Below, piece by piece: positions 5,600 to 63,689 of a stretch of 64,000 nt of DNA. Under the pieces are notes generated by a model, which made no database searches, was not told where the DNA came from, and saw only the letters and a list, made by a program, of their open reading frames with translations. A program made the translations under genes and the position numbers. How positions within the stretch are numbered: position 1 is the stretch's first letter; each line of letters starts with the position of its first letter. This DNA comes from a bacterium. Its GTDB lineage: Bacteria > Desulfobacterota > Deferrisomatia > Deferrisomatales > BM512. The stretch is taken from the NCBI GenBank assembly GCA_004322275.1, contig SCTA01000022.1, forward strand, positions 1 to 64,000, in the 5' to 3' direction.

Positions 5600-5786
5600 C
5601 GTTTCAGGGAAAAATTCCTACAGAAAAATAGTCCTTTCACCCTCTGGCTTTTTGTGCGCCCCGGTCTAACGTTAACCCATCAGAATATTTTTGTGGCTGT
5701 GCGCCGGGGTTTACGCCGCGGAGGGGATGGTTTTTTTCCATGCGCCCGACTTTTATATGCATCGACCAACCGGAAAGGAGCGGAAA

Positions 5787-17028: not shown

Positions 17029-18774
17029 CTACTCTCTGGGATAATGTTCGTATTTGAGATCCACTGAAAGGATGGGGACTTCCTGCCTGTCTCCGGTGAG
17101 GGCGAACACCCGTATCTTGCTCTCCCGACCCATGAGTTTAGTCTGAAGCCCCGATAATTCCAGATAAATTTCGCCGATAATCATTTCCTTCTCGCCGACC
17201 CGCACTATGTAGCGGGTAGCCTCCGGGTAGGGGTCCCAGGCAAGAGCGATGTCTCCGATGGCGGTCCTGCCGCCGCGCGCCCTCTTTTCAAAGGGAATCT
17301 GGGGCTTTTCGGCGCTGGCCTCGAACTCCGCCGGCATTACGAGAAACCTGTCGCCCACGTAGGGTAGGACGAAGTGGCGAAGCTGGGCGTTGTCGGCGAG
17401 CTCAACCTTAGGGACGTAGGAAAACTCCCTGGCGTGGGCGTTGTCCACCCTCGCGACGAGCTCGCCTATTATGCCCTTCATCCCGGTGACGTAAATCGCG
17501 TACCCCTGCGCCAGCGCGTCGCGCGGGAAGGTGGACCATTCGATCGTTACCCTGTCGGGCTGGACCTCCTCGCTTATCCCCTCTATCCTCGCGACCTGCG
17601 GGGGAACGGGGAGAATCGTCTCCGCTAAGGCGCTGGGTGCGGCGGCCCCGTCCAGCCACGCCTCGATCCTGAATTTTATCGCCTGCTCGGCGGGTTTCAG
17701 GGTCAGTGGCCCCTCGCTCACCTCTCCGGCCCGAACTATCTCCTCGCCGCGAAGGTCGAAGAGGGTCTTTTCTTCCGTTTCGCTCTTCATGAGGAGCACA
17801 AGCCTGTCGAGGGTTCCGCCGGGGAGCTCCCAGGAAACGGTCGCCGTAAGGTCGCTCTCTATGGACGCCGCGATGGCCGCCGAGGAGACCGGCGACATCG
17901 CCCACGCCTGCAGATCCGCAAAGGCCAGCGGCAGCCCGTCTTTGTCGAGGGAATAAAGCCGGTAGCTCACGGTTTCGCCCAGAGGAACGTCGGCGTCGAG
18001 GAAGGCGTCCTTGTCGCCCTCGTACCTCACCTCCCATTGGGTCGCCGCCCTCTTCCGAAGCAGCCTGTAAGACGCCGCCCCCTCAAGCAAAGGCCAGGAA
18101 AAGGAGACCGTGCGGTTGCCCGGAAGGATCTTGACGGTTTTGGGCTCCGGGTAAAGGGATACGAGCCTTTGTTCGAGCTGGTCGCCGGCCCATATCTCCA
18201 GTTCGACAAAATGGGTGTCCCTGTCGTCTATCGGGGCCGAGAAGGTTATCTTGTATTTGCCTTCCGGGATCATGAGCGTGAGCCCCCCGGGCCCCAGTTC
18301 GCGGGGGCGGGAGAGGTACTGCCTGAGCTTGTCTACGGCTTTTCTCGCCGAGACGTCCAGCCGGGCCTCGTTCAGGGGCTCGATGGAGCCGGTAAGCCCC
18401 GCGTAGGGAACGGCGTTTATCAGGCGAAGCCTCCCCGCTCCGGTTTCGTTCAGCAGAAAATCCATCAGAGCGGCGGTCTTTTCATTACCCTTCCCCGCCT
18501 TGTCGAGTTCTTCGATAGCCATGTAAGCCTCGGAGTACCTGAAAACCCCCGAGTAAGCCTTGGCCACTGCTGCGACGAACCTCGCATCGGTCTTCGCGCG
18601 CGCGGGATCGACCTCTTTTGCCTGCTCAAGCGTCTTGACGGCGTCCGAGGCGTAGGCTGACCCCTTCTCGTTGAAGAATTCCCCCTTTTCGAGCAGGTTG
18701 TCGAACTCCGCCGGGAAGGCGGGCAGGGCCAGCGCCAAAAAGGCGAACAGCAAAAACAGGGTCTTAAAATTCAT
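17029..18774 (-). CDS. Unknown secreted protein with TPR-like start and FN3-like domains
   Basis: About 581 residues with a signal peptide (MNFKTLFLLFAFLALALPAFPA). Residues 25-110 form helices like a short TPR block; the rest is mostly strand, with FN3-like segments ('RTVSFSWPLLEGAASYRLLRK', 'DIALAWDPYPEATRYIVRV') that suggest two or three FN3 modules. The ATG at 18774 overlaps the TGA of the ABC ATPase gene upstream (ATGA), so it is translationally coupled to the transporter; a longer GTG start at 18792 is less likely. Function unknown. Its tie to the peptide importer suggests a periplasmic partner role, but this is inference. Confidence 0.75.
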   Translation of the reverse strand: MNFKTLFLLFAFLALALPAFPAEFDNLLEKGEFFNEKGSAYASDAVKTLEQAKEVDPARAKTDARFVAAVAKAYSGVFRYSEAYMAIEELDKAGKGNEKTAALMDFLLNETGAGRLRLINAVPYAGLTGSIEPLNEARLDVSARKAVDKLRQYLSRPRELGPGGLTLMIPEGKYKITFSAPIDDRDTHFVELEIWAGDQLEQRLVSLYPEPKTVKILPGNRTVSFSWPLLEGAASYRLLRKRAATQWEVRYEGDKDAFLDADVPLGETVSYRLYSLDKDGLPLAFADLQAWAMSPVSSAAIAASIESDLTATVSWELPGGTLDRLVLLMKSETEEKTLFDLRGEEIVRAGEVSEGPLTLKPAEQAIKFRIEAWLDGAAAPSALAETILPVPPQVARIEGISEEVQPDRVTIEWSTFPRDALAQGYAIYVTGMKGIIGELVARVDNAHAREFSYVPKVELADNAQLRHFVLPYVGDRFLVMPAEFEASAEKPQIPFEKRARGGRTAIGDIALAWDPYPEATRYIVRVGEKEMIIGEIYLELSGLQTKLMGRESKIRVFALTGDRQEVPILSVDLKYEHYPRE

Positions 18775-19748
18775 TCGTGGCATGGCGAACACAGGTGGCA
18801 GGCGATGCGGTGGCCGGGACTAACCTCTACCAGCATCGGTATCTCGTCGGCGCAAAGGGAGTTCCCCCTCCCTCCGACCTGACAGCGGTGACGGAAGGAG
18901 CAGCCGGTCTTCCAGCGCTCCGGGGCTTTTCTGTGGTTCTGAATGGTCAGATTCGGCCGGGGGTCGTAGGCGCTCTTTAAAAGCTCCTTTGAATAGGGGT
19001 GGCCGGGGCCCTCCCTGAAGAAGGAGGAGGCCGGGGCGTCCTCCACTATCCTGCCGTGAAGAAGCACGAGGACTCTCGTGGCCAGAAATTTGACCAGCCG
19101 AAGGTCGTGGGAGATAAAGATCATCGTGGACTTCTGGCGCTCGTGAATCTGCCGCAGGAGGTCCAGAAGCTGGGTCTGTATCGGCTGGTCGAGCCCGCTG
19201 ACCGGCTCGTCGGTTACTACGAAGCTGGGCCGCGTGGCGAGGGCTCTCGCGAAAACGACTCTTCGCTTTTCTCCTCCCGAAAGGCTGGTGGGGAATTCGT
19301 CCAGGCGCTGGCTGGGAAGCTGGACGAGGCGGGCCAGTTTTTCCACCTCTTCCCTCGCATGCTGTCTGGTGGCCTGGGGAAAGTGGGTCTTGACCGCCTC
19401 GACCAGGGCGTCGCGAACCTTGAAGGCGGGGTTCAGGCTAGCGTAGGGATTCTGGAAGACCATCTGCGCGGTCATCCTGAATTTCTTTTCCTCTCTCCCC
19501 TTGAGCGCCTTCATGTCGAAGCCGTTTACCGTGACCCTCCCCTCCTCGAAGGGGACGAGGCCGAGAAGGCACCTGCCGAGAGTCGTCTTGCCCGAACCCG
19601 ATTCGCCGACCAGCGCGGCAAGCTCGCCCCGCTCAAGGGTAAAATCAATCCCCTGAAGGGCGGGCACCTTCTTCGCCCAGCGGGCCAAAAGCCCCGAGGC
19701 GCCGAAGTATTTCCAGAGGTTGTCTACGACTACCGCCGCTTCACTCAT
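18771..19748 (-). CDS. oppF: Peptide ABC transporter ATP-binding protein, OppF/DppF type
   Basis: 325 residues. ABC motifs: Walker A GESGSGKTT, signature LSGGEKRR, Walker B FVVTDEPVSGLD, H-loop ISHDLRL. The C-terminal extension found in peptide/nickel ABC ATPases is present, with Cys in CSFRHRC. It forms the ATPase pair with the gene before it, overlapping it by 4 bases (ATGA), and hydrolyses ATP on the inner face of the membrane to import oligopeptides or a related solute. Substrate cannot be fixed: the family also moves nickel, which matters because a NiFe hydrogenase lies 15 kb away, but no nickel-specific binding protein is evident. Confidence 0.93.
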   Translation of the reverse strand: MSEAAVVVDNLWKYFGASGLLARWAKKVPALQGIDFTLERGELAALVGESGSGKTTLGRCLLGLVPFEEGRVTVNGFDMKALKGREEKKFRMTAQMVFQNPYASLNPAFKVRDALVEAVKTHFPQATRQHAREEVEKLARLVQLPSQRLDEFPTSLSGGEKRRVVFARALATRPSFVVTDEPVSGLDQPIQTQLLDLLRQIHERQKSTMIFISHDLRLVKFLATRVLVLLHGRIVEDAPASSFFREGPGHPYSKELLKSAYDPRPNLTIQNHRKAPERWKTGCSFRHRCQVGGRGNSLCADEIPMLVEVSPGHRIACHLCSPCHE

Positions 19749-20785
19749 AGGTCATCCACGAAACAGGCTATGTTGTGGCCGGGCGAAAATTCTCGCAGGG
19801 TGGGGCATTCGAGAAGACACCGGGAGGTCGCCGCTTCGCACCTCGGCGAGTAGGGGCAGCCCACCAGCGGCGCGGGCTCCTTGACCGCGAGGCGCGGAGA
19901 AGCGCCCTCTATAAGCTTTTTCTCCGATTCCAGCAGAAAACTCGTGTAGGGATGCTTCGGCTCGTGGTCCCAGTCCAGAACCTCGTCGACGGATCCTGTT
20001 TCGACGATTGTTCCCTCGTAGAGTATCGCCACGTCGGAAGCCAGTATCCTGGCCGCCGCAAGGTCGTGGGTGACCAGAAGAAGGGTTGCTCCCTTTTCTT
20101 CCACCATAGAGTGAAGGAGGGAGATAATCGAGATGCGGAGCGTCGCGTCAAGGCCGGTGGTGGGCTCGTCGGCGATGAGGAGCCTGGGCCCCGGCGCAAG
20201 GGCCAGAGCAATCGCCGCCCGCTGCGCCATCCCGCCCGACAGCTCGTGAATGTAGCACTCGGAGACGGTCTCTACGTCGTACATCTCCACCCGCGAAAGC
20301 CAGGAAAGCGCGAGCCCCCGCGATTCCTCGCTCTCTATGCCGGGGTTTGCCCGCTCCAGCACCACCGAGAGCATCTGCCCTATTGTGTGAAAGGGGGAAA
20401 GGGAGGTCGAGGCGTCCTGCGGTATCAGCGTAACGTCTTTGCCGAGCATGTCGCCCCAGGCCCTTGCCTGTGCCCGCCTCCACCCTGCCAGGTCTTTTTT
20501 TATCAGAACTTCGGGGTGTTTCCGGTACTCCACATAGCGGTCGAGCTCGCCGAAAATCTCCTGACCCAGAACCTTCGCGCTGCCCGAGACTACTCCGGGC
20601 TGCCCCTGATGGACGCCGAGAACCGAGTGTATCAGGCAGGTCTTGCCGGAGCCGGACTCCCCCAGAAGCGCGAAGGTCCTCCCCTGACGCACCGTAAGCT
20701 CCACGTTGGAGAGAATCTTCCGCATATCCCTGCGGCCTTCGAGATAGACCGTAAGGCCGTGCGTTTCAAAGGCGGGATGGCTCAC
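19745..20785 (-). CDS. oppD: Peptide ABC transporter ATP-binding protein, OppD/DppD type
   Basis: 346 residues. Walker A GESGSGKTC (Cys where Thr/Ser usually stands after KT), signature LSGGMAQR, Walker B LLIADEPTTGLDA, switch His in VTHDLAA. The C-terminus carries the oligopeptide-ABC motif with CPYSPRC and two more Cys; in some OppD/DppD proteins these Cys bind an Fe-S cluster. It overlaps the permease gene before it and the OppF gene after it by 4 bases each, so all parts are made in fixed ratio. Cytoplasmic face of the inner membrane. Confidence 0.94.
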   Translation of the reverse strand: MSHPAFETHGLTVYLEGRRDMRKILSNVELTVRQGRTFALLGESGSGKTCLIHSVLGVHQGQPGVVSGSAKVLGQEIFGELDRYVEYRKHPEVLIKKDLAGWRRAQARAWGDMLGKDVTLIPQDASTSLSPFHTIGQMLSVVLERANPGIESEESRGLALSWLSRVEMYDVETVSECYIHELSGGMAQRAAIALALAPGPRLLIADEPTTGLDATLRISIISLLHSMVEEKGATLLLVTHDLAAARILASDVAILYEGTIVETGSVDEVLDWDHEPKHPYTSFLLESEKKLIEGASPRLAVKEPAPLVGCPYSPRCEAATSRCLLECPTLREFSPGHNIACFVDDL

Positions 20786-21633
20786 CCTCGCTCCTCCACG
20801 ACGCTCAGAAGACCCTGGCCGACGAGGGTGAAGCCCACGAGCGTAACCGAGATCATCAGCGCGGGCAAAAAGGCCTGCATGAGGTGGCCCGTGAAGACGC
20901 CGTCTCTGGCGAGCGAAATCATGTTGCCCCAGCTCGGCGTGGGCTCCTGAACCCCGAGTTCGCCGCCGAGGTAGGAAAGGCTGGTCTCGACCAGAAGCGC
21001 ATAGGCCATAAGGCTCATCAACTGGGCGAGGATTACCCTCCTTGCGTGGCCCCAGAGTATGTGGACGAAGACTATTCTCGCCATGCTGACGCCAAGGCAG
21101 CGCTCCGCTTCGATGAAGGAGGCCATGCGGAGCCTCTCGACGCTAGAACGTATGGCTCCGGCAATCTGGGGAGCGAAGGTGACTCCCACCGCCGTCATTA
21201 TCCAGACGAGATTGCTGCGCGCTATCGAGGCTACGAGGAGAACCAGAACGAACTTGGGCAGGGAATCGAGCACCTGCAAGAGCCAGTAGGTTATCGCTCC
21301 CCATATCTTGCCGCCGAGGGATTCCGCCACGCCCAGAACGCCGCCGACAAAAAGCGCTACGCCCATCGCGAGCGCGCCGGGGGGGGTGAAATAGGCCGAA
21401 GCGGCGCCGAGGCGGCTGAAAAGATCTCTGCCGAGGGCGTCGCAGCCCAGAAAAAATTCCGCGGAGGAGGGGGCGTTGGGCTCGCCGACGAAGGCCATCG
21501 GATTGTGGGGCAGCCAGCCGAAAGTCCCGGCCAGCATGCCCAGCGTCGAGGGAATGAGGCACAGCGCGCCGATGGTCAGGCTGATGAGGCGGCTTTGCCT
21601 GCTCGCTGTCGGAAAGCGCTTGACCTTACCCAT
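20782..21633 (-). CDS. oppC: Peptide ABC transporter permease, OppC/DppC type
   Basis: 283 residues with about six membrane spans, including the N-terminal span 'LISLTIGALCLIPSTLGMLAG' and the BPD_transp_1 core with the EAA-like loop 'EAERCLGVSMARIVFVHILW'. The segment before the second span ('FFLGCDALGRDLFSRL') is the conserved GTDxLGRDxxSR signature of OppC/DppC, here with C for T. It pairs with the OppB-type permease, whose gene it overlaps by 8 bases. Confidence 0.92.
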   Translation of the reverse strand: MGKVKRFPTASRQSRLISLTIGALCLIPSTLGMLAGTFGWLPHNPMAFVGEPNAPSSAEFFLGCDALGRDLFSRLGAASAYFTPPGALAMGVALFVGGVLGVAESLGGKIWGAITYWLLQVLDSLPKFVLVLLVASIARSNLVWIMTAVGVTFAPQIAGAIRSSVERLRMASFIEAERCLGVSMARIVFVHILWGHARRVILAQLMSLMAYALLVETSLSYLGGELGVQEPTPSWGNMISLARDGVFTGHLMQAFLPALMISVTLVGFTLVGQGLLSVVEERG

Positions 21634-22672
21634 TGCTGCGCTGTCTCGGGTCCGCGAGGTACCCCACGAAGTCGCAGAACATGGAAAAAACCCTGAGCAC
21701 CGCCGCCATTACAAGCGCCGCGCCCAGAAGCACCGGCATGTCGCGCTCTGCCGCCGCGCGCCAGGCGAGGTAGCCCAGCCCCGGCCAACCCAGCGCCGCT
21801 TCGAGGACAACCAGCGAGCCGAGAAAAAAGGATACGCGCCGGGCGACGTGGGAGGCCGCGCCGGGGATAAACCCCCTGGCTATGACCTTGGGCACGCTAA
21901 GCCCCATTATCCGGACGCCGGTGATGTGCTCGCCTGTAGAGGAGTGGCGAAGCTCGTTCTGGAAGCGGCCGAAGAGGTCGGAGAGTTCCCCGTCGCCCAC
22001 GGCAAGTATGAGCGCCGCGAAGAGCCAGGGGAGGAAAGCGGCTTCCACCGGCAGGGGAAACCAGTGCGGCATCGACCAGTAGCCCCCGTCAACCCCCCAG
22101 GCTATCGCCCTGTTGCCCCCCGCAACGAAGATATAGACGTACAAAAATACCGGTATGGAGGAAAGAAGACCTATGCTCCAGCCCAGAGAACGGCAGAAAA
22201 GCGAGTTGGGACAGAGAATTCTCCCGGCGGCCCCGCCAAGGGCGAGGACGACCGAGATACCGAGACCCGCGAAGAGGAGAGAGAAGGAGCGCCAGGCCGA
22301 GGGCCAGATGAGGTCTTCGGCGGGCCTGCCGCGCTGAAGGGCGGAGCTGTGGCCGAATTGCCCGGTCATTACTCCGCCTAGCCAGAGGAAATATTCCTTG
22401 GCTGCAAAGCGCTCTGAATCTTCGACCTTTACAGCGCCAACGTTTACCCCGGCGGGTTCGCTCTGAAGGCGAAGCCCGCGCGAAGTGTCTACCGGCGCGG
22501 CCTTAAGCACTATGAAGAGCAAAAGACTCGCACCGATTAGAACCAGTAACGTCGCCGCCAGTTCCCGTCCGGCAAAGGAGAGTAGGCCGAAAATCAGGCG
22601 ACCGGTGTCACTTCTCCTTCCAGTCCGCAACGTAGGAGAAGAAGTAGAAGGGGTGGAGTCGGACATTTTCAA
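21626..22672 (-). CDS. oppB: Peptide ABC transporter permease, OppB/DppB type
   Basis: 348 residues in the longest frame, with an N-terminal span (ELAATLLVLIGASLLLFIVL) and five more, and the EAA-like loop. The family usually starts a few residues before the first span, while this frame adds about 30 Ser/Thr-rich residues that overlap the end of the binding-protein gene by 65 bases. No good inner start codon is visible, so the overlap may be real. It differs from usual OppB in the periplasmic loop after span 1 (short, with 'SRGLRLQSEPAGVNVG'). Forms the channel with OppC. Confidence 0.85.
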   Translation of the reverse strand: MKMSDSTPSTSSPTLRTGRRSDTGRLIFGLLSFAGRELAATLLVLIGASLLLFIVLKAAPVDTSRGLRLQSEPAGVNVGAVKVEDSERFAAKEYFLWLGGVMTGQFGHSSALQRGRPAEDLIWPSAWRSFSLLFAGLGISVVLALGGAAGRILCPNSLFCRSLGWSIGLLSSIPVFLYVYIFVAGGNRAIAWGVDGGYWSMPHWFPLPVEAAFLPWLFAALILAVGDGELSDLFGRFQNELRHSSTGEHITGVRIMGLSVPKVIARGFIPGAASHVARRVSFFLGSLVVLEAALGWPGLGYLAWRAAAERDMPVLLGAALVMAAVLRVFSMFCDFVGYLADPRQRSNG

Positions 22673-24143
22673 TCCGGCTGCTTATTGCCGCATAGCGGTT
22701 CAGGCTCCAGAGGAAGATGTAAGGCAGGTCCTCGTTGAGCGTTTTGTGCAACTCGCCGTAGGTGGCGCGCAACATCTCGGAATTTTTCGCTTCGCGGCTC
22801 TCGTCGAGGAGACGGTCTACCTCGGGGTTTGAATAAGCCCCGAAATTGTTCTGGTTTTGTCCGGTCTGGGTGGAGTGGAAAAGGGTGTAGACGTTGACGC
22901 TGTTGTCGAAGGTCCACTCGGCCAGCACAAGGTCGAAATCGTGGTCCTCGAAAACCGCGGTCTTCCAGGCCATCGGTTCGAGGAAGCGGACGTCGGCGTT
23001 AAGGCCCATGTTCTTTATCTGCTGCTGGAGGTCGAGAACCACCGCCTTTTGAACCTCGGACTGGGCGAGGGAGAGTATCTTCAGGGTGACGGGCTTGCCG
23101 TCGAATTCCTTTATGCCGTCCTTGTTGGTATCGACGACTCCGGCCTCTTTGAGAAGCTGATTCGCGCGCTCGCTGTTGTAGGGCCAGGGCTTTACGTCGA
23201 AGTTGTACGCCCAGGAAGCCGGGGGAAAGGGGCCGGAGATGATGGTGCCGCGATTGCCGTAATGGGCCTTGAGCATCTCCGGGCGGTTAAGCCCGGCCAT
23301 GAGGGCCTGGCGGAAAAGCTTCTGGCGGATCAGCGGGTTTCTGAAATTAAGCCCCAGATAGCTGTAGGACAGCGTCGAATAGGGGTAGAGCCTTACGCTG
23401 GAGAGTTCCTCCAGGGCGGGGATGTCCTTCGGCCTCACCTGGGGAAGGAGGTCCACCGCGCCGTAGCGCAGAAGCTCGTTTCTGATGTTGTCGTCCGGCA
23501 CAGGAGACACCTCCACCGCGTCGATTCCGCCCTCCTTGGCCTTGGGGTAGTAGGGGCTGCGGTTGAAGCGTATCTCGCCCGCGTGGGTCCATTCGCCGAA
23601 GGAAAAGGGGCCGCTGCCGATGGGCGACTCGATGGCCGATTCGGCGACCACGTAGCCCTCGGGAAAGCGATGCGCGGGAAGAATCTTGAAATCGAAGTAC
23701 AGAAGAGGATTTAAAACCTTGCGCTTGAAGTTGACTATCACCGTGGAGTCGTTCGGAGCCTCTACCTTGTCAAAAGCCTCGAACTGGGCCCCGAGGGCCG
23801 TGGCGGTTCTCGGGTCCCTTCCGGCTTCGATGGTGAAGAGGACGTCCTGAGCGGTAACGGGCTTACCGTCGTGCCACTTCAGCCCCTTTTTGATTTTGAA
23901 CTTCACCGAGGTTTCGTCCGGGGAGACCGTCCAGGATTCCGCCAGCGCGGGCTTCACCTCTCCGGCTTCCGGGGGGCTGACCAATCCTTCGTACATCAGC
24001 TCGGTCGCACGAAGACTCGGCATGTCCGCAACCAGCATCGGGTTCAGGCTGGTCGGCGCAGTGGACTCCGCGTAGCGAAGCCCTGCGGCGGCAGGCAAAG
24101 CAAGCAAGGAGACAAAGAACAACAGGCCAAGCCGTCGTCTCAT
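22608..24143 (-). CDS. oppA: Peptide ABC transporter substrate-binding protein (SBP_bac_5)
   Basis: 511 residues with signal peptide (MRRRLGLLFFVSLLALPAAAG) and no lipobox, so probably a free periplasmic protein. SBP_bac_5 family marks: an early 'PTSLNPMLVADMPSLRATELMYEGL' region, 'FKIKKGLKWHDGKPVTAQDVLF', 'SPIGSGPFSFGEW', and the C-terminal 'ILSLAQSEVQKAVVLDLQQQIKNMG'. The family binds oligopeptides, dipeptides, nickel or related solutes. It is the first transporter gene, 70 bases after the TPR lipoprotein gene, and all later genes overlap or nearly touch. Confidence 0.93.
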   Translation of the reverse strand: MRRRLGLLFFVSLLALPAAAGLRYAESTAPTSLNPMLVADMPSLRATELMYEGLVSPPEAGEVKPALAESWTVSPDETSVKFKIKKGLKWHDGKPVTAQDVLFTIEAGRDPRTATALGAQFEAFDKVEAPNDSTVIVNFKRKVLNPLLYFDFKILPAHRFPEGYVVAESAIESPIGSGPFSFGEWTHAGEIRFNRSPYYPKAKEGGIDAVEVSPVPDDNIRNELLRYGAVDLLPQVRPKDIPALEELSSVRLYPYSTLSYSYLGLNFRNPLIRQKLFRQALMAGLNRPEMLKAHYGNRGTIISGPFPPASWAYNFDVKPWPYNSERANQLLKEAGVVDTNKDGIKEFDGKPVTLKILSLAQSEVQKAVVLDLQQQIKNMGLNADVRFLEPMAWKTAVFEDHDFDLVLAEWTFDNSVNVYTLFHSTQTGQNQNNFGAYSNPEVDRLLDESREAKNSEMLRATYGELHKTLNEDLPYIFLWSLNRYAAISSRIENVRLHPFYFFSYVADWKEK

Positions 24144-24213: not shown

Positions 24214-25824
24214 TCATCGCGGGGGCGCCTCTCCCCCTGTTCGCGACGCGTAAAGTCTTTTAAGGCTCTCGTAACCCAGCCGGACAGCGGGGTACTGGTT
24301 GCTGAGTTCAAAGAGTATCTCCGTCGAAGGAGCATACTGGCCGGTCTGGGCGTAAGCGCTTGCCAGGTCAAGAAGGAAGGCGGGCGGATTTATGAAATCC
24401 GGCTTGTAGCCTTTTCTCTTCTGGTGGGCGCTGTCGAGGAGGTCGAGCGCCTCGCGGGATTTGCCCCCGGCCCTCACGACAGAGGAAGCCTTCCGGCAAA
24501 TCTCCGCTTGCCTCGCCCCCAGAATCGCCGAAGCGATTTCGCCGTTTTCAACCTCCAGCATCTTTATCCGGTCCATCCGGATTGCGGTGATGGAGTCATT
24601 CACGGCCTGCTCGGGATTGCCCAAAGGCCCTTTTATTCCCATGCCGACCTGCAGTTCGGCGAGATACGCGAGGGTGAAAGCGCCGGGATCGCCGTCCAGC
24701 AGTTCCTTTAAAACCGCCGTCCCCTCCGCGGTTTTCCCCGCCCGGATCAGCGACGCGCCGCGAAGCGCCGTCGAGACTTCGAGCATTTCTTGCCCGTCGA
24801 TGATCACCCCGAACAAAAGGGCGGGGTGCAGCGTGCCGCTTTGCTCCCCGGTTACGCCAGCCAGCGCCGAGACGCTTGCCTCGTAGTCCTTGAGAAGCCA
24901 TAAAGCGCGGCCGGAAAGCCAGGCGGCCTCCTGCCCTCCCACGGTCTTTAGCGACGCCAGGGCGTATTTCGCGTATGTGATTCTTAAAAGATCGTACAAA
25001 AAGAGATCGGGCCCCGCCTCCTCGGCGCTGCCGTAACCGGCCCGCTCCAGGGCTCCTGCGGCAGCTCCGAAATCGCCGCCCGCAAGAGAGGAAACGGCGC
25101 TGGAGTACTGGCTCTTGTCCTTTATTCCGGCCGGGCGGCCCCAGCTGTAGGAGGCCGTCAATGCCAGGGAGGTCTTGTCCGCCGGGGCTTCCTTTACCGC
25201 CTTCTCAAGGGCTGCGCCGCCGGAGGATTTGCCGGAGATGACTTCGACTCCGGCCCTCCCCAGGCTCCAGACCGCCTCCTGCCCTCTCGGGGGAGCGGCT
25301 GAGAATATTTTTCCGGCCGCATCCGTGTCGCCCTGCCTCAATCTTATGAAGCCAAGCCGCCCGGCAGCCCCGGGAATCCCCTTCACGGCGGGGGAACCGA
25401 GATACTCGGCCTCGGTCTTGAGATAAAAGCCGTCAAGGACGGCGAAAGTCTCCGCCAGCTGGAGACAGGCCCTGGCCTTGCCGATGCGCTCCGGGATGCT
25501 CGTGCCCGAAGAGAATGCCGTAATGGCGGCGGGAAGAGCCATCTCCCTGAAATTAACCCACCCTTCGCCGTCGGAAAGAAGGCGGGCTATCTTCTCGTTT
25601 CTCTGGGCGTAAAGACCCACCCAGCTGTTTTTAAGCCGGTCAACCTCGGTCGCCTTCGTGCCGATGGAAGATCCCCCTTCGGATTTCCCGGAAGGGGAGC
25701 AGCAGCAAAGACAGACTGCAAGAAGTAAAATCGCGCTAGCGACCCAGCTTCTTTTCGAGATAACTGAGATTCTTCTGGTGTTTCTTGGCTTTTTCAATCC
25801 AGCTTGTTCCAAGGGTTTCTTCAC
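24214..25824 (-). CDS. TPR-like lipoprotein (unknown)
   Basis: Up to 536 residues. A hydrophobic stretch (ASAILLLAVCLCCCSPS) with three adjacent Cys works as a lipoprotein signal. The mature part is helical with repeated Ala/Leu/Gly pairs as in TPR or Sel1 proteins ('GAAGRLGFIRLRQGDTDAAGKIF', 'SAYAQTGQYAPSTEILFEL'). The longest frame overlaps the PEGA gene before it by 89 bases; no ATG lies further in, so the start may be ATG 25824 or one of two TTG codons (25812, 25797). Probable periplasmic scaffold. It sits between the PEGA protein and the peptide transporter, so it may link the two, but no family function can be given. Confidence 0.75.
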   Translation of the reverse strand: MKKPLEQAGLKKPRNTRRISVISKRSWVASAILLLAVCLCCCSPSGKSEGGSSIGTKATEVDRLKNSWVGLYAQRNEKIARLLSDGEGWVNFREMALPAAITAFSSGTSIPERIGKARACLQLAETFAVLDGFYLKTEAEYLGSPAVKGIPGAAGRLGFIRLRQGDTDAAGKIFSAAPPRGQEAVWSLGRAGVEVISGKSSGGAALEKAVKEAPADKTSLALTASYSWGRPAGIKDKSQYSSAVSSLAGGDFGAAAGALERAGYGSAEEAGPDLFLYDLLRITYAKYALASLKTVGGQEAAWLSGRALWLLKDYEASVSALAGVTGEQSGTLHPALLFGVIIDGQEMLEVSTALRGASLIRAGKTAEGTAVLKELLDGDPGAFTLAYLAELQVGMGIKGPLGNPEQAVNDSITAIRMDRIKMLEVENGEIASAILGARQAEICRKASSVVRAGGKSREALDLLDSAHQKRKGYKPDFINPPAFLLDLASAYAQTGQYAPSTEILFELSNQYPAVRLGYESLKRLYASRTGGEAPPR

Positions 25825-27673
25825 TCGAATTCAGACGGGCAAAGAACATTTCCCAGGCCTGAACGCCTTTTTTGACGTATTTTTTCTCGTTGGTGAGGCC
25901 GAAGAGAAGCTCGGAGGCTATCCCCGTATAGTAATGGGCCTTCAGGGCAAGCGACTGGCGCTCGTCCGCCGGGAAGTAATCCACCGATTCGACGCAGCGG
26001 TCAAGCGCGTCGATGCCCTTTGAAAGATAGTCGGACCCTTCGCCCTTTCCAGCCTGTTTCGCCGCCTGAATCGCCCAGTAACCCATCCCGAGATTGAGCA
26101 CCGGGTTTTTCTTGTAGATGGGCTGGGAGAAAAGCTTTTCAAATTCCGCCGGTATTTCGCTGGTTCTGCGGAGATTCTGGAGAATGCGTATCATCATTAT
26201 TCTTGATTCGGGGTAGCTCGCCTTCGCCGGGTCGACGCGGTCGAGAAAAGAGATGGCTTCCTCGTCCTTGCCCGCCTCGAAGACTTTCTGCGCGCTGAGG
26301 TAGGCCTCGTCGATTACCGGGAGCTTTATCGGATTTGCCTGGTAATCCACCGAATCTTCGGTGAAGGAGACCGAGACCTGAAGGGGACGGTAACCGGCGG
26401 TTATCGCGGGATTGAGTTCCATCTTCAGTACGTGGGTGCCCTTTTCGGTCACGAAGCCGACGCCCTCGGGACCTGCGACGCCGAGTTCCTTGCCGTCGAG
26501 CCAGACCCTCGCCCCCTCCGGATCGGTGAAGATGCGGACAGCGGCTTCGCTACGCTGCGCCTGCAGCGAGGCGAGTATGGTCTCCGTTTTTTCGCGGGTA
26601 ACCTTCACGTTGTTGCGCGACCAGGGGATGAACCCCTCCTTGTCGACGCGGATTTCGTGGATTCCGGCCGGAACGTCGGCGATGCGGAGGGGAGCGTCGG
26701 CCACGCCGACGGCGTTGCCGTCGAGGAAGACCTTGCCGCCCGTCGGGGTGACGATTATCAGCAGCGCGCCCGCCTTTTCCTCGAGGGTTTCCTTTATGGC
26801 CTGGGTGGCCCCCGCCTTGACTTCGACGGTGAACTCCCTGTCAACGTAACCATCCTTGGAGAGGAGAACCTTGTGTTTCCCGGAGACTACCGGCTGATTT
26901 ACAGGGCTGAGGCCGAGGCGCTTGCCGTCGAGGTCTATCCTCACGTTGGAGGGGGTCGTCTCGATATTGAGAAAGCCGACTCCCAGTCCGCCCTGAGTGG
27001 AGAGATCGATGAAAATGCGTCCGCTTCCGCTTTCCACCATCTGGCTGAAAGCGCCCTTTTGAGGATGGAACAGGATGATTTCGTGCGGCGAATCGGCGAG
27101 CCCTTCGACCGCAATCGGCGTCACGCCAAGCTCTTCGCCGTCGATGAAGACCTTTATGCCCTCGGGAGACGATTCCACCACCAGGGTTCCGCCCGCTCTG
27201 GGGGCTTCTTCCTCAGCGATCTCCTCCGCCACGGCGGCGTCGGCTTCCCTTCTCTCTTCCATTGCGGCCGAACTCGCGGGAGCAAGGCTGGGGGCGGGAA
27301 CGGGAGCCGGGGCGGCGGCTTCTTCAGCCGCGGGAGGAGCTTTTTCCTCGGCCGCAGGAGCGGCTTCGGTTTTGGGAGCCTCCTGAGCGGGAGGAGGCGG
27401 GGGAGGGGGAGCTTCCTTGACCGCCTCGGGAGCCTTTGGGGGCGGGGGAGGCGGAGCTGCCGGGGGCGGCGCACTCGGCGCGCTTCCGGCGGCTTCGGGA
27501 GCTTTCTGGGTCATCAGCTTCAGGCCGGCGACAACGGTGTCGTCGCCGAAAATCGAACCGGCTTTGGCTTGCGCCACGCCGGGCGCCGCCGAAACCAGAA
27601 GGGCGGCGAGAACAAGCGAGATACAGACACCCGGGAAACCTGCCAGGATTTTTCTTATTGAAAGAGAGTTTCG
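25736..27673 (-). CDS. Exported protein with four PEGA domains
   Basis: 645 residues from ATG 27673 (AGAGGGA 4-5 bases upstream); an upstream ATG at 27706 lacks a ribosome site. After the signal peptide (ILAGFPGVCISLVLAALLVSAAPGVAQA) comes a Pro/Ala/Glu linker (about 45-155), then four PEGA-type beta modules in tandem (about 160-450): cores 'EGIKVFIDGEELG', 'SNVRIDLDGKRLG', 'GGKVFLDGNAVG' and 'EGARVWLDGKELG'. The last 180 residues are helical. PEGA domains are found in surface-layer and envelope proteins of deltaproteobacteria; the exact ligand is not known. The Pro-rich linker suggests it spans periplasm or peptidoglycan. Confidence 0.85.
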   Translation of the reverse strand, partial: RNSLSIRKILAGFPGVCISLVLAALLVSAAPGVAQAKAGSIFGDDTVVAGLKLMTQKAPEAAGSAPSAPPPAAPPPPPPKAPEAVKEAPPPPPPPAQEAPKTEAAPAAEEKAPPAAEEAAAPAPVPAPSLAPASSAAMEERREADAAVAEEIAEEEAPRAGGTLVVESSPEGIKVFIDGEELGVTPIAVEGLADSPHEIILFHPQKGAFSQMVESGSGRIFIDLSTQGGLGVGFLNIETTPSNVRIDLDGKRLGLSPVNQPVVSGKHKVLLSKDGYVDREFTVEVKAGATQAIKETLEEKAGALLIIVTPTGGKVFLDGNAVGVADAPLRIADVPAGIHEIRVDKEGFIPWSRNNVKVTREKTETILASLQAQRSEAAVRIFTDPEGARVWLDGKELGVAGPEGVGFVTEKGTHVLKMELNPAITAGYRPLQVSVSFTEDSVDYQANPIKLPVIDEAYLSAQKVFEAGKDEEAISFLDRVDPAKASYPESRIMMIRILQNLRRTSEIPAEFEKLFSQPIYKKNPVLNLGMGYWAIQAAKQAGKGEGSDYLSKGIDALDRCVESVDYFPADERQSLALKAHYYTGIASELLFGLTNEKKYVKKGVQAWEMFFARLNSSEETLGTSWIEKAKKHQKNLSYLEKKLGR

Positions 27674-27735
27674 CATCGGTCCCTCTACCTTTTTCAAAAT
27701 CGTCAACGTAATGCCCTGCCGATTGTTTTCCAGGC

Positions 27736-29070
27736 TCAGCGGTTGAATTTCGGCCCGCTGCCGGCAGGCACGACGAATTGCATCAAATCGAGATTGGCGC
27801 GCAGATCGACGTCAAGGTCCGGAACACCCTCTTCGTAAGGGTCCTGATTCGCCAGTCTGAGATCGGGCGCCTTGTTTTCCTTGAAATTGCCCGCTGCGAT
27901 TTCGACGCTCTCGGCGCCGAACCCCTTGCGGTAAGCGTAAATCTTGTAGTCCCTGCCGAGAAGGGGCTCGTCTCCTTCGAGGAGTCCGCCCGAAGCGTCG
28001 ATCTTTTTCTTTCTGGAGATGCGGAACTGGCCCTTTTCGTCGGTCAGCACTTCCATTGTATAGGGGCTCGTCCAGACCTCCGCCTCGCGTATCGGAGCGC
28101 CGCTCGAATCCTGCACGGTTCCGACGAGGTAGGTCGGAGTGAGCTTGACCGGAAGGTCCATCTCTATCTTCGCCGGTGCTGCCGCCGGGATTTCGACCAT
28201 GATTTCCTTGGCCATCTCGAACTTTTCATCCCGGACCGTCAGCTTCAGCGAAACCGGGTACTCGGCTACGGGGATGCCGTCCAGAGAGAATTTCCCGGCG
28301 TCGTCGGTCATGCCGATGACGAAACGGTCCAGCTTTATCATGGCCCTGGCGAGGGGAATGTCCTGGCTGACCTGCTCTTCGAGCTTGACCTGCCCGAATA
28401 TGGCACCGCCGTCGGGCGCCGGGAAGGTCTCGCGAAGGTTCAGCCGGAACATCCTCTGGGCGACACGTCCAACCAGCGGAGACTGGGGAAAGACCTGTAG
28501 GAATTCCTTGTAGGCTTCTACGGTGTCGGCGCTGCGGACTCTCGTGTAGGCCTCTTTTTCCGTCTCCCTCGCGAGCCGGTCTCCCTGCGAACCGCCGCCG
28601 CGCTGCACCTTCAGCATGAACATGCCCTTGCTGACCTGGCGCTCGACTATCGCGCGGCCGAGGCGCTTTAGCCTTGTGCTGTAGACCATGTAGCGTTCGT
28701 TCTTTTTGGCGCCGCCGGGGATCTCTGCGAGTATTTTGTCCCCCCTGACGTAAACGACGCTGCCGACGAAGGACTCCGCGGTAATCTTCCTCGGCTTCGG
28801 CTCTTCTTCGGCAGCGGGGGCGGAAACCAGCGCGCCAGCCGGAGAGGAAGCCGGAGCGGAAGAGGGAGGGGCTGCGGCTTCGCCTGCGGGGGCGGGCGCG
28901 GCGGTTTGCGCCGGAGCCGCGGGAGGAGCCCCTTCAGCCGGAGCGCCTCCGGCAGGCGCTTCGCCCCCTGTTTTTTTGCGGATCTGCATTGCCGCGAACC
29001 CCTGCTCGGCGGCGACGCAAACCGCAAACATTGCGATAACCATTAAGGCAGTCACGCTTTTGATTTTCAT
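27736..29070 (-). CDS. Exported protein with carboxypeptidase-regulatory-like domains
   Basis: 444 residues from ATG 29070 (AAAAGGTG upstream); a longer ATG at 29124 adds 18 residues without a ribosome site. Signal peptide MKIKSVTALMVIAMFAVCVAA, a Pro/Ala-rich linker (about 35-95), an SH3-like strand segment ('SFVGSVVYVRGDKILAEI'), then two CarboxypepD_reg-like/SdrD-B-like modules, seen as 'KFSLDGIPVAEYPVSLKL' and 'TPTYLVGTVQDSSGAPIREAEVWT...GQFRIS'. It is the first gene of the 13 kb minus-strand run, 62 bases before the PEGA gene. Similar linker composition suggests the two form one envelope complex. Confidence 0.8.
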   Translation of the reverse strand: MKIKSVTALMVIAMFAVCVAAEQGFAAMQIRKKTGGEAPAGGAPAEGAPPAAPAQTAAPAPAGEAAAPPSSAPASSPAGALVSAPAAEEEPKPRKITAESFVGSVVYVRGDKILAEIPGGAKKNERYMVYSTRLKRLGRAIVERQVSKGMFMLKVQRGGGSQGDRLARETEKEAYTRVRSADTVEAYKEFLQVFPQSPLVGRVAQRMFRLNLRETFPAPDGGAIFGQVKLEEQVSQDIPLARAMIKLDRFVIGMTDDAGKFSLDGIPVAEYPVSLKLTVRDEKFEMAKEIMVEIPAAAPAKIEMDLPVKLTPTYLVGTVQDSSGAPIREAEVWTSPYTMEVLTDEKGQFRISRKKKIDASGGLLEGDEPLLGRDYKIYAYRKGFGAESVEIAAGNFKENKAPDLRLANQDPYEEGVPDLDVDLRANLDLMQFVVPAGSGPKFNR

Positions 29071-29403
29071 AAAACACCTTTTCAAGCCGGTGGGCGGATG
29101 CCCCACAATGCGGTTGAACTCCACATCCTGAAACTTTTCTTAAATACCACAACTCCTTCGCCCAAGGCAATTCCGCATATCGCTCATTTTTACCGTACCC
29201 GGCAAAAAGATGTCCGCATGCCTTTATGTCAGGTTTTTTTCGGGGACTCCCGAAAGCCTCGCGCCGCCGCAGCCGTCCGCCGTCAAATTTTTGGGGGTTT
29301 TTGTCTCTCCGCCTGTTGCGGCGCGAAACATTATTAATGTATAAAGGCACATTCCGTATCTTGAGAGATTTTGAAAAACCTTAACTCGGGATGAACTGAA
29401 AGA
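29071..29403. promoter_or_regulatory. Divergent promoter region between the envelope run and the 31-heme cytochrome
   Basis: This 333-base region must carry promoters for both directions. For the + strand a candidate is TTGCGG (29316-29321) and TATAAA (29340-29345), 18 bases apart, about 58 bases before the cytochrome ATG. I looked for a GEMM-type c-di-GMP or cGAMP riboswitch, which precedes some Geobacter multihaem genes, and did not see its conserved core. No other gene is supported here. Confidence 0.4.
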
Positions 29404-31899
29404 ATGATTTCGGGTTCGCGCCACAGCTTGTCCACGCTGACGCTCCTAATTGCAATTTTTCTGGCGGCTTTCGCTCCTTCGGCCAGTGCGGTTCAGATAC
29501 TGTCACCCCCCTTCAACACGGCGCTGGGTGACGATTTCGTGACCGTAATCGGCAAGGACCAGCCCGGCAAAACCATTGCCTGGCAACATATCCGTCCCAC
29601 CGGGCTTGAACAGGCCGAGGCCGTCGCAGGGCCTTCCGGGATATTCAATTTTTCAGCCAAGCTCGATCCCGGGATAAACCGCTTCAACGTTTCCGGCACC
29701 TATATAGAGGTTTACTTCGTTCAGGACAAAGACCCTGTGCCCTCCGGCTTCATCCGCCGCCACATGCATTCCCGCGACATCTCCCAGTGCTCCGATTGCC
29801 ACGACGAAAACATGAAGCTCGTCGAGGGCGGTCAGCCTTACGTCTGTCTGGCGTGCCACGTCGTCGTATCCCAGAACCCCGAGAACGACGCCGACCCGAT
29901 GTCCAACAACCATTTCAAGTCGACCGTCGCGACATGCACCGAGTGCCACGAACCGCACCTCAGCCAGAACGTAAAGCTGATGGCCCCCCAGAAGCTCGAG
30001 CCCTGCAAATCGTGTCATGCGAAAAACTACGCGGGGGCTAAAAATCACGCAGCTTTCGAGGAGGGCGGCTGCATGGCCTGCCACGACCCTCATTACACCG
30101 GCTTCCCGTACAGGCTTTACAAGGGGCTTCGGCTGACATGTCAGGAGTGCCATTCCCAGGCGAAGTCGGTCCCGGACAAAAAATTTCATCCCCCGTCGGC
30201 TAACGAGAGCGGCAAATTCTGCGACGACTGCCATGATCCCCACGGCACCACTCCCCGTCTCATCAAGGGTGACAAGAACGACCTTTGCGTCCAGTGTCAT
30301 CCCAAGGTCCTCAAGGAAGGACACGGCAAGGAGCTCAAAGGCTGCGCCAAGTGCCACGATCCCCACCGCGAGATCGGAACCAGGCAGCTTAGGGCGGATT
30401 TCCCCGCCGGTTGCGAGGAGTGCCACGACGGGTACAGGGACGGCGCAACCGTACATCAGCCCGTCAAGGAAGGCTGCCAGAGCTGCCACAGCCCCCACAA
30501 GGACGGAAACCTGGCCAAGGCCAAGGAAAAGTGCCTGCAGTGCCACAACTTCAAGAAGGATCTCGAAGTCTCGACCCTGCACGGCAATCTGCCGTTGACC
30601 GTCGAGCAGTGTCTGACCTGCCACCCCGTGCATGACTCCAGCCAGACGAAACTCGTCAAAGGCAAAATCCATTTCCCTCTCACTCAGGGAAAATGCGACG
30701 CCTGCCACGGACAGGGCGCTGCCGCGGCCATAAAGATTAAAGACGTTACTGCGAAGTGCAACGTTTGCCATACCACCCTCAAAGACCTCCAGCAGAGCGG
30801 CCAAAAGGTACATTCCCCGGTTTCCGACGACGGCTGCACCGCCTGCCACAATCCGCACATGTCGGTTCAGAAGGCGTACCTCGCAAAACCCATGGAGAAA
30901 CTCTGCAGGGAGTGCCACGACGACGTTCCCCAGGCCGGAAACGGCAAGGAGCTTCATCCCGCGGCCAAGGACTGCGCCGACTGCCACAAACCCCACGGCG
31001 GCGAAAATAAAAAGTTCCTCGTGAAAGCAAAAGACCTCTGCCTAGACTGCCATGACAATCCGGTAACGGGGGCTTCGGTTGTTCACGCGGCGCTGGACGA
31101 GGGCTGCACCGCCTGCCACGACGCCCACGCGGGCTTTGGGAAAAAACTGCTTAAAGCTAAAATCCCCGGTCTTTGCACCCAGTGCCACACCGATCCCGCC
31201 AAGGGCAAGGTCGTCCACACGGCCATGGACGAGGGCTGCAACGCCTGCCACAAACCTCACGCCACAAACACGAAGAAGCTTTTGAACGCCGCAGGAGACA
31301 AGCTCTGCCTTAACTGCCACACCGTTCCCGGCAAAGAGGGCAAGATTCCCCATACCGGCCTGGAGGAGGGCTGCACCTCCTGCCACGCGCCGCACAGCTC
31401 CGAAAACAAAAACCTCGTCAAGGCGAAGGGCAACGCGCTCTGCTTTAATTGCCACAGTGACCCGGCGAAATCCGGCAAGGTTCATACCGCCCTGGACGAG
31501 GGCTGCTCCTCCTGCCACAAGCCCCACGGGTCGGATCAGAAGAACCTCCTGACCTCCGCCGGAGACAAACTCTGCTTCGCCTGCCACAAGGACCCCGCGA
31601 AGGACAAGAAGGTTCGCCACGACGCCCTCGACGAAGGCTGCACGCAGTGCCACAAACCTCATTCCTCCGCGGAATATCCGCTGCTGAAAAAGCCGGTAAA
31701 CACCCTTTGCAAGGAATGCCACTCCAGCCACAAAAAACATGTGCTGGACGCAAAATCCGCAAAGGATTATCCCGGCCCCGCGCCTTTCCCCGTCTCCGGA
31801 AACGAACTTTCCTGCGCCGGCTGTCACAACCCGCACGCCTCAAACGAAGCGCACCTTTACGCAAAGCCGCAGAAGGAACTGTGCAACAGTTGTCATTGA
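29404..31899 (+). CDS. Secreted 31-heme c-type cytochrome
   Basis: 831 residues with a signal peptide (STLTLLIAIFLAAFAPSASA), an N-terminal beta domain (about 33-105) and then 31 CXXCH haem motifs by direct count, in about 715 residues. Most belong to doubled-CXXCH units of about 40-46 residues, such as 'DEGCxxCHKPH...DKLCxxCHxDP', typical of the cytochrome c7/doubled-CXXCH family. The last residues are CNSCH followed directly by the stop. Many motifs are followed by xPH, giving distal His ligands. Haem is attached in the periplasm; such proteins act as electron wires at the outer surface or between membranes. No outer-membrane porin or lipoprotein cytochrome is next to it. It stands alone on +, divergent from the envelope run. 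Confidence 0.95.
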   Translation: MISGSRHSLSTLTLLIAIFLAAFAPSASAVQILSPPFNTALGDDFVTVIGKDQPGKTIAWQHIRPTGLEQAEAVAGPSGIFNFSAKLDPGINRFNVSGTYIEVYFVQDKDPVPSGFIRRHMHSRDISQCSDCHDENMKLVEGGQPYVCLACHVVVSQNPENDADPMSNNHFKSTVATCTECHEPHLSQNVKLMAPQKLEPCKSCHAKNYAGAKNHAAFEEGGCMACHDPHYTGFPYRLYKGLRLTCQECHSQAKSVPDKKFHPPSANESGKFCDDCHDPHGTTPRLIKGDKNDLCVQCHPKVLKEGHGKELKGCAKCHDPHREIGTRQLRADFPAGCEECHDGYRDGATVHQPVKEGCQSCHSPHKDGNLAKAKEKCLQCHNFKKDLEVSTLHGNLPLTVEQCLTCHPVHDSSQTKLVKGKIHFPLTQGKCDACHGQGAAAAIKIKDVTAKCNVCHTTLKDLQQSGQKVHSPVSDDGCTACHNPHMSVQKAYLAKPMEKLCRECHDDVPQAGNGKELHPAAKDCADCHKPHGGENKKFLVKAKDLCLDCHDNPVTGASVVHAALDEGCTACHDAHAGFGKKLLKAKIPGLCTQCHTDPAKGKVVHTAMDEGCNACHKPHATNTKKLLNAAGDKLCLNCHTVPGKEGKIPHTGLEEGCTSCHAPHSSENKNLVKAKGNALCFNCHSDPAKSGKVHTALDEGCSSCHKPHGSDQKNLLTSAGDKLCFACHKDPAKDKKVRHDALDEGCTQCHKPHSSAEYPLLKKPVNTLCKECHSSHKKHVLDAKSAKDYPGPAPFPVSGNELSCAGCHNPHASNEAHLYAKPQKELCNSCH

Positions 31900-31971: not shown

Positions 31972-32568
31972 ATGCTTTATAAAAACATGGAACCCCTAAA
32001 AGCCATCGACCAGATCAGGTCCCGCCTGTCCTCCCGCCGAAGGCTGGTTATGCCTGCAGAGGAGCTCTCTCCGGCGGCGGTCGCGCTTCTTTTGTCACCC
32101 GGCCGTCGCGGTCTGGACCTCCTCTTCACCCTTCGCACCGGCACCGTCCTTCACCACAAGGGGGAGGTCTCCTTTCCCGGCGGGCGGGCCGATCCCTGCG
32201 ACTCCTCATTTCTGGACACCGCCCTTCGCGAGACCTGGGAAGAGATAGGGGTGAGACCAAAAGACCTTGAGATTCTCGGCGTCCTCGACGACCGGACCTC
32301 GGTTTCGGGTTATCTGGTGACTCCCGTGGTCATGTTCCTTCCCGAGAAGGACTATTCCTTTAAACCGGAGCCGGCGGAGGTTTGCGAGGTCTTCACCGTC
32401 CCGCTCCCCCACCTTTCCGGCCCGGACAGCCACCTGAAGAGAATCAATTCAAGGCACCCCGACGATCTCTATTCCTTCACCTGGGAGCACAGGGTTATCT
32501 GGGGTCTTACCGCCTCCATACTTCACGGCTTTTTGACGGTGGCTTTCGATTACGAGTTTCGCGGGTGA
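31972..32568 (+). CDS. Nudix hydrolase, CoA pyrophosphatase (NudL) type
   Basis: 198 residues. The Nudix box appears as 'GEVSFPGGRADPCDSSFLDTAL' followed by RETWEEIG, which matches the CoAse subgroup pattern (FPGGxxDxxDxSxxxTALRExxEEIG). Catalytic Glu residues are in REtwEE. The subgroup splits CoA and its derivatives into 3'-phosphoadenosine... and 4'-phosphopantetheine parts. Two ATGs (31972 and 31987) are possible and neither has a clear ribosome site. It begins 72 bases after the cytochrome and is followed within 4 bases by a small unknown gene, so a short operon is likely. Confidence 0.85.
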   Translation: MLYKNMEPLKAIDQIRSRLSSRRRLVMPAEELSPAAVALLLSPGRRGLDLLFTLRTGTVLHHKGEVSFPGGRADPCDSSFLDTALRETWEEIGVRPKDLEILGVLDDRTSVSGYLVTPVVMFLPEKDYSFKPEPAEVCEVFTVPLPHLSGPDSHLKRINSRHPDDLYSFTWEHRVIWGLTASILHGFLTVAFDYEFRG

Positions 32569-32572
32569 GGAT

Positions 32573-33076
32573 ATGATGGCAAACGGCTCAGGAAACAACC
32601 TTTTTGAAAATTTCGTGGAAATGGACGGGCGCGCACGGGGCTTTCTCGGCCTCTTCTACCAGTGGCTGCGCTCCGGGACCGGCCCGGCGCTTGCGGACCA
32701 GAAGGCAAGCGATCTGGCGCACAAGGCGGACAGGTACCTTCGGGATTTCGTCGTGGACATACTTGAGCTCGCGCCCGAGAAGAGCGACGCCGAAACCGTC
32801 CGCAAGTACCTCGGCAACTGGTATATCATCAACACCCTCGGTCCGACCCTCGAAGAGCTTGACCTTATCGGGGAATCGCTTAGACTTTTCCATCAGTGGG
32901 CGGCGCTTCGGGGAATCATCGGCAAGGACACCGAAGCCGGAGTTATCGCGGCCCTCTCGAAGATGGATTTTTTTCACGGACGGCTGGAATCCTTTTGGTC
33001 GCTGAGGCCGGAGGGGATAACGGGATGGCGGGCTGTAGACGATTACCGGAAACCGCACTCATCGCCCTTGGGATAG
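32573..33076 (+). CDS. Unknown soluble protein
   Basis: 167 residues, mostly helical, with no signal peptide or membrane span. The start ATGATG follows GAGGAT, 4 bases after the Nudix stop. Visible features: a Trp/Phe-rich N-terminal helix ('FLGLFYQWLRSG'), a mid part rich in Leu and Glu and an end 'WSLRPEGITGW'. I do not recognise a family. Its last 52 bases overlap the monoheme lipoprotein gene in another frame, so both belong to one transcript. Confidence 0.7.
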   Translation: MMANGSGNNLFENFVEMDGRARGFLGLFYQWLRSGTGPALADQKASDLAHKADRYLRDFVVDILELAPEKSDAETVRKYLGNWYIINTLGPTLEELDLIGESLRLFHQWAALRGIIGKDTEAGVIAALSKMDFFHGRLESFWSLRPEGITGWRAVDDYRKPHSSPLG

Positions 33077-33309
33077 CTCTTTTTCTCGCGGCGGGAGGAT
33101 GTTCGAGGTCGCGTTCCGCGGATGAGATGGTATTTGAAAGGGGCTGCGGCGCCTGCCACACCACCGAAACCCCTCTGTCCAAAAGAAAATCCCTCGAAGA
33201 CTGGCGAAGGACGGTCAAGGTGATGCGGGAGCGCGGCGCGAAGATAAGCGACGAGGAAGAAAAAATGCTGGCCGAGTACCTGTACGAACTGCGGCCGGAT
33301 AAAAGATGA
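33025..33309 (+). CDS. Small monoheme c-type cytochrome lipoprotein
   Basis: 94 residues. ATG 33025 has GGAGGGG 8 bases upstream. The N-terminus is a lipoprotein signal (ALIALGIALFLAAGGC), and the mature part has one haem motif CGACH followed by 'TTETPLSKRKSLEDWRRTVKVM' and an acidic helix 'ISDEEEKMLAEYLYEL', as in small cytochrome c / quinohaemoprotein-type domains with a downstream Met ligand (VKVM). It is lipid-anchored in the periplasm, probably an electron shuttle. The start lies inside the previous gene (52 bases overlap), and a longer frame to 32896 has no support. Confidence 0.85.
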   Translation: MAGCRRLPETALIALGIALFLAAGGCSRSRSADEMVFERGCGACHTTETPLSKRKSLEDWRRTVKVMRERGAKISDEEEKMLAEYLYELRPDKR

Positions 33310-33313
33310 ATAT

Positions 33314-33355
33314 AAACGTGAAAGGGCCGCCCGGTTGGGCGGCCCTTTCACGTTT
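33314..33355. terminator. Bidirectional terminator between convergent genes
   Basis: A perfect 19-bp stem (33314-33332 with 33337-33355, loop GGTT; core GGGCCGCCC/GGGCGGCCC flanked by AAA/TTT) lies exactly between the monoheme gene on + and the hydrogenase protease gene on -. The arm ends are A-rich and T-rich, so it can stop transcription from both sides. Confidence 0.9.
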
Positions 33356-34504: not shown

Positions 34505-34520
34505 GTCGCCTCTCCCGGCC

Positions 34521-36290: not shown

Positions 36291-36328
36291 CGGGTCTTTC
36301 TCCTATATCAAATCGTTTAATCGCGTTT

Positions 36329-63663: not shown

Positions 63664-63689
63664 GTTGCACCTCCGGGTGCTTTTACTGT

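Follow-up and report, generated by a model that had tools for sequence, protein, structure and literature searches.

Among described multihaem cytochromes, the closest to the protein analysed here is MtrA, whose ten haems cover 80 Å (PMC7198977). Longer chains have been described in the PCC3 cytochromes, which occur in Fe(II)-oxidising Gallionellaceae, Leptothrix and others, carry 21–27 haems on a periplasmic protein and 10–35 or more on an extracellular one, and have been proposed to act as long wires, some with a length that would suffice to cross the periplasm (PMC5566968, PMC10734462). GSU2495 of Geobacter holds 26 haems in ~70 kDa (PMC12977616), cytochromes with 30–53 haems per protein have been reported (PMC7399161), and numbers reach 43 haems per protein in MBNT15 bacteria (PMC9386147) and 45 haems in ANME MAGs (PMC10052568). 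As proteins of 20–60 haems are documented in PCC3, Geobacter, ANME and MBNT15, the 31-haem cytochrome encoded in our window (the whole stretch of 64,000 nucleotides that was analysed) belongs to an already known kind, that of long multihaem proteins; its architecture and locus are specific to its lineage, and no description of its family, which bears an Ig-like head, was found in the open-access literature. The view of an earlier note on this DNA that so many haems are rare outside metal-reducing and methane-related microbes is overstated: besides the published proteins with 30–53 and 43 haems, one scan returned relatives with 20–42 haems in Geobacter/Geomonas, Gemmatimonas, Fibrobacter, Nitrospirae, Latescibacterota and other MAGs.

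The cytochrome gene (Table 1) is a single unbroken frame with an ATG start, encoding 831 residues with 31 CXXCH motifs, zero CX3CH and zero CX4CH. The motif is absent from all other frames of the stretch 29404–31899, and copies of the protein shuffled with composition kept contain 0.35 CXXCH on average and 4 at most; the count of 31 given in the earlier note was reproduced, as was its observation that the final five residues are CNSCH. Successive motifs lie 19–35 residues apart, giving doubled units of ~40–50 residues, and the Paired_CXXCH_1 profile (PF09699) matches over 13 stretches with E = 7.8e-123 and 400.4 bits (cut-off 20.6), which bears out the near-regular doubled-CXXCH units claimed before. 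At 26 residues per haem, the mature protein has a computed mass of ~87 kDa as the apo form and ~106 kDa with haem. A frame-breaking sequencing error, which the earlier note had named as the point at which its count could fail, is very unlikely, since relatives of equal length and motif order exist under strong constraint: those in G002 and G004 (sister genus) have 831 residues and 31 haems, without a tail and with the motifs in the same order, and comparison of their two genes gives dN 0.060, dS 2.3 and dN/dS ~0.03, dS being near saturation. The relative in G003 (same family) has 808 residues and 29 haems. The 31-haem cytochrome gene is real and conserved.

Table 1. Coordinates of the cytochrome, its parts and the neighbouring genes in the window
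Feature	Position	Strand	Basis
31-haem MtrA-type secreted cytochrome, 831 aa	29404..31899	+	Motif count, Pfam/NCBIfam, ligand pattern, Foldseek
Sec-type signal peptide, residues 1–29, likely cleavage between SASA and V	29404..29490	+	Sequence, hydropathy scan
N-terminal Ig-like beta domain, residues 30–119	29491..29760	+	Alignment of relatives, weak Pfam matches, order-wide occurrence
Conserved 15-haem head, haems 1–15, pattern ddPdPdPdPdPdPdd	29761..30813	+	Identical in 10 orthologues and 24-haem paralogue
Variable-length tail, haems 16–31, last residues CNSCH	30814..31896	+	Ligand pattern, orthologue comparison
Modelled ten-haem segment, residues 468–697, predicted MtrA-like fold	30805..31494	+	pLDDT 84.4, Foldseek
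Divergent partner, secreted, Ala/Pro-rich linker and CarboxypepD_reg domain	27736..29124	-	Pfam, synteny
Secreted protein, Pro-rich linker and PEGA repeats	25736..27706	-	Pfam, synteny
TPR protein, maintained in the divergent run	24214..25824	-	Pfam, synteny
Opp/Dpp/Nik-type ABC transporter: binding protein, two permeases, two ATPases	18771..24143	-	Pfam
NUDIX hydrolase, beside most orthologues too	31972..32568	+	Pfam, synteny
Small conserved protein without Pfam match, near the cytochrome across the order	32573..33076	+	Pfam, synteny
[NiFe] uptake hydrogenase set: small subunit (Tat signal), large subunit, cytochrome b, maturation protease	33355-37426	-	

The Sec-type leader contains no lipobox Cys, and a hydropathy scan of the remaining protein gave no helix clearly hydrophobic enough for a later transmembrane segment, in agreement with the previous description of a secreted multihaem protein and indicating one that lacks an anchor. 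The beta domain that follows had been judged not to be a cytochrome fold, and this holds: relatives give weak Big_6 and Glucodextran_B matches in Pfam, pointing to an Ig-like domain that is conserved in their alignment, although the sequence of the 831-aa protein itself yields no Pfam match here. Just past this domain lies a His120/His122 pair, one member of which, as judged from the sequence, probably ligates haem 1; from residue 120 onwards, CXXCHxxH (distal His at +7) mostly alternates with CXXCH whose further His comes at +12 to +18. Not counting the leader and the Ig-like domain, the sequence offers 33 His beyond those of the motifs to 31 haems, enough for every haem to be bis-His, and we infer that the 31 CXXCH sites are loaded with haem. 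No tandem repeat was found at the DNA level within the gene, which suggests that the expansion of the haem units is old.

Ten orthologues from the order carry 22, 23, 25, 29, 31, 31, 31, 35, 35 and 35 haems (the 22-haem protein being a second copy in G005), and the ligand order of the first 15 haems is the same in all ten: a fixed 15-haem order combined with variable totals indicates that the lineage keeps the head constant and varies the tail. The Ig-like domain and the same 15-haem head are also found in a 24-haem paralogue in the same genome (contig C5, 8866-11034; L061) and in a 24-haem counterpart of the latter in the Deferrisomatales MAG C14-16 (L015). This paralogue has nine tail haems against 16 in the 31-haem cytochrome and, unlike it, lies away from the conserved divergent run of genes described below; its relatives across the order form a second, shorter series. 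The Ig-like head is present in all genomes of the order examined bar G001, whose gene is cut at a contig end, and outside the order it recurs more weakly in 18 other sampled genomes (395 of the phylum searched), in proteins with mostly 5–18 haems.

The relationship to MtrA was apparent from both sequence and predicted fold. The NCBIfam model TIGR03508 (DmsE family, MtrA-like) scores 282.8 bits against a cut-off of 192.2, a value inflated by 9 repeated stretches, and the top phmmer match in the PDB is 6r2q chain A (E 6.6e-13). A full-length AlphaFold2 model, calculated with 15 distant relatives as input, reached a pLDDT of 39.9 and was set aside. One ten-haem segment (Table 1) was modelled from an alignment with 19 equivalent segments of the cytochrome and its relatives, mostly non-overlapping windows, with the orthologues from the whole-genome search left out of the inputs for all structure models; the best of five models is the one listed, and the remaining four reached 59 or lower. 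In a Foldseek search of 350,542 PDB chains with the best model, the sole significant match was 6r2q_A (E 3.4e-6, TM 0.50, rmsd 5.4), a chain of the Mtr complex that we read as MtrA from its length and CXXCH content; for a predicted structure, these values amount to likeness at the level of the fold and not to the same curvature. The linear haem wire anticipated in the earlier note is thus borne out by prediction for one MtrA-like segment of ten haems, but not for the full 31-haem chain with its full-length model at pLDDT 39.9. The surface decahaem family OmcA/MtrC (TIGR03507) stays below its cut-off (21.9 versus 209.3 bits), and no match to the OmcS/OmcZ nanowires was found in the PDB by sequence or fold, OmcE appearing only at E 2.8.

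Set against MtrA/DmsE (TIGR03508; 6r2q chain A), the cytochrome shares doubled CXXCH motifs, the pattern of distal His residues, Sec export and, for one ten-haem segment, the predicted fold; it differs in having 31 haems instead of 10, in being about three times longer and in its N-terminal Ig-like domain. Moreover, MtrA has MtrB as a partner, whereas none was recognised at this locus or detected in the genome: Pfam searches with MtrB_PioB (PF11854) returned nothing here or in 8 of the 9 kin, a result that leaves room for other porin types. PCC3 proteins, compared by description only, resemble the cytochrome in their ~26 residues per haem (median 26, PMC5566968) and in a haem number that differs among relatives (PMC5566968, PMC10734462), but are defined by an adjacent porin and a five-helix inner-membrane protein, neither of which was recognised among the Pfam-annotated neighbours, several further neighbours having no Pfam match. 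The large Geobacter/Geomonas cytochromes are 33% identical to the cytochrome along most of the haem-bearing part and are peptide-minimised in the same way; however, the 26-haem protein of this group has a differing initial ligand order and no Ig-like head by domain profile, and its gene adjoins that of a 16-haem cytochrome. From size and haem count, our guess is that the Geomonas 26-haem protein is the orthologue of GSU2495. A 25-/26-haem cytochrome followed by a 15-/16-haem one is a recurrent pair in Geomonas, a Nitrospirae MAG and other genomes (L009-L011, L014, L045, L046), and Gemmatimonas and Fibrobacter MAGs (L013, L016) contain a single 41-/42-haem protein that looks like a fusion of such a pair.

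The cytochrome had been described as sitting alone, which it does not: it is followed after 72 bases by the NUDIX gene, which has the same orientation, and a divergent run of genes adjoins the cytochrome in 9/9 orthologues with complete flanks, which represent four families of the order (G006 being counted among these although its contig ends before the ABC transporter). The run, described before as one of envelope genes, consists largely of an Opp/Dpp/Nik-type ABC transporter, to which the PEGA, CarboxypepD_reg and TPR proteins of Table 1 and one or more PD40 proteins (Pfam) are added. The first gene of the run, whose true start is probably the internal ATG of MKIKSV at ~29070, turned up in 5 of the 148 genomes sampled across the phylum, each of them a member of the same order, and where synteny was looked for around head-domain proteins outside the order the run did not adjoin them. 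Such conservation of gene order within one bacterial order suggests, though it does not prove, a functional link. In the divergent intergenic gap, where the earlier note had suggested a shared promoter region, no convincing promoter was found, either sigma-70 or sigma-54-like, and the intergenic region gave no Rfam family; a short stretch 5' of the divergent gene is alike in three genomes, its folding being no better than that of shuffles. Six loci of other families also have a histidine kinase and an NtrC-type regulator 3' of the cytochrome. A small cytochrome-like protein with a single CXXCH (32896-33309, plus strand), whose start is probably further in, overlaps the preceding gene in another frame; in four genomes of the family, relatives of this small protein likewise come after the cytochrome locus.

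Since the ten-haem segment has its sole significant structural match in MtrA, we favour the reading of the protein as an elongated MtrA-type haem wire, most likely placed in the periplasm, that would link donors in the inner membrane to acceptors in the outer membrane or outside the cell (probability about 0.55). The protein would be exported by Sec and then receive its haems from the usual c-type maturation system, and each paired unit, with two CXXCH and two distal His (CXXCHxPH and xH), would align bis-His haems as in MtrA; given such a line-up, we propose that the chain passes electrons by hopping from haem to haem. Its constant part would be a head made up of the Ig-like domain and haems 1–15, at which docking probably takes place, and the count of later units would set the length of the wire. 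Extrapolated at MtrA pitch, 31 haems would extend to ~270 Å if straight, about the width of the periplasm, and could then bridge inner-membrane donors and outer-membrane or extracellular acceptors. Straightness over 31 haems, location, electron direction, partners and substrate are all inferred here. Besides the negative MtrB_PioB search and the model values given above, further observations count against or strain this picture: the genes next to the cytochrome include none recognised as a porin, a quinol oxidase of the inner membrane or another large cytochrome, and totals of 22–35 haems among orthologues fit poorly to a periplasm of fixed width unless the chain overlaps or bends. A more specific version, in which an order-specific conduit replaces shuttles by a periplasm-long wire, with its Ig-like 15-haem head docked on a scaffold of the CarboxypepD_reg and PEGA proteins, two-haem units tuning the tail length and an outer-membrane step other than MtrB, appears doubtful to us at this level of detail.

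The main rival to a periplasmic position is an extracellular one: a wire of the same fold, exported for example by type II secretion, whose Ig-like head would hold the cell surface or the PEGA/CarboxypepD_reg neighbours and which would pass electrons to minerals or partner cells. We regard this as a possible but less probable arrangement. It would suit the order-wide Ig-like head, the adhesive-type neighbours and a large multicopper oxidase in the same window, a secreted protein bearing FN3-like repeats, and cytochromes with 30–53 haems were predicted only as extracellular or of unknown location in PMC7399161; against it, the cytochrome contains no sorting signal, lipobox or S-layer domain that we could find, and its best relatives are of the MtrA/DmsE type, which enter their porin from the periplasm.

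Two further explanations carry less weight. Were the protein a periplasmic electron store, a capacitor holding charge in its haems in the absence of acceptors, its length and the order of its chain should matter little, and both the high haem load and the drift of haem number from 22 to 35 among orthologues could be understood in this manner. However, the strict 15-haem ligand order, the alternating pattern and the wire-like predicted fold are unnecessary for storage alone, which renders this explanation unlikely. Weaker again is the case for a hydrogen-to-metal chain in which the cytochrome takes up electrons from the [NiFe] uptake hydrogenase nearby: the hydrogenase set lies 1.5 kb from the cytochrome and is retained at the same position in G001, G002 and G004, but this adjacency is limited to the family of the window and is absent in G003 and in the other families of the order although they keep the cytochrome, and the hydrogenase has a cytochrome b of its own; such a partnership seems most improbable. 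Should the preferred reading of an elongated MtrA-type wire be correct, a lineage that has been little studied and probably respires iron has carried the MtrA wire fold as far as 31 haems. The orthologues supply a natural length series, with totals from 22 to 35 behind an unchanging head, in which to ask what the length of the chain does to electron transfer and whether a single protein is able to span the periplasm; as candidate partners, the genes of the conserved divergent run are concrete choices.

The rpoB of the host has 75% identity to that of the Deferrisomatales MAG C14-16 and 63–64% to Geobacter/Geomonas, so that the host probably belongs to Deferrisomatales or stands close to them (within Thermodesulfobacteriota as named by NCBI). 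Deferrisoma species are Fe(III) reducers (PMC10052568), and the host bacterium is probably Fe(III)-respiring. Its genome encodes many more doubled-CXXCH proteins. Elsewhere in the window, the multicopper oxidase mentioned above (5691-9755, plus strand) is a secreted CotA-like protein of 1354 residues with C-terminal FN3-like and other repeats, its best PDB matches being CotA (E 9e-40); it is reminiscent of OmpB/OmpC, large multicopper proteins of Geobacter with a link to Fe(III) oxide reduction. A ChaN-like haem-binding domain fused to a PDZ domain is encoded at 48280-49554 (plus strand), and a 720-residue protein at 61531-63693 (minus strand) contains Ig repeats of the invasin-D3/Big_1 type.
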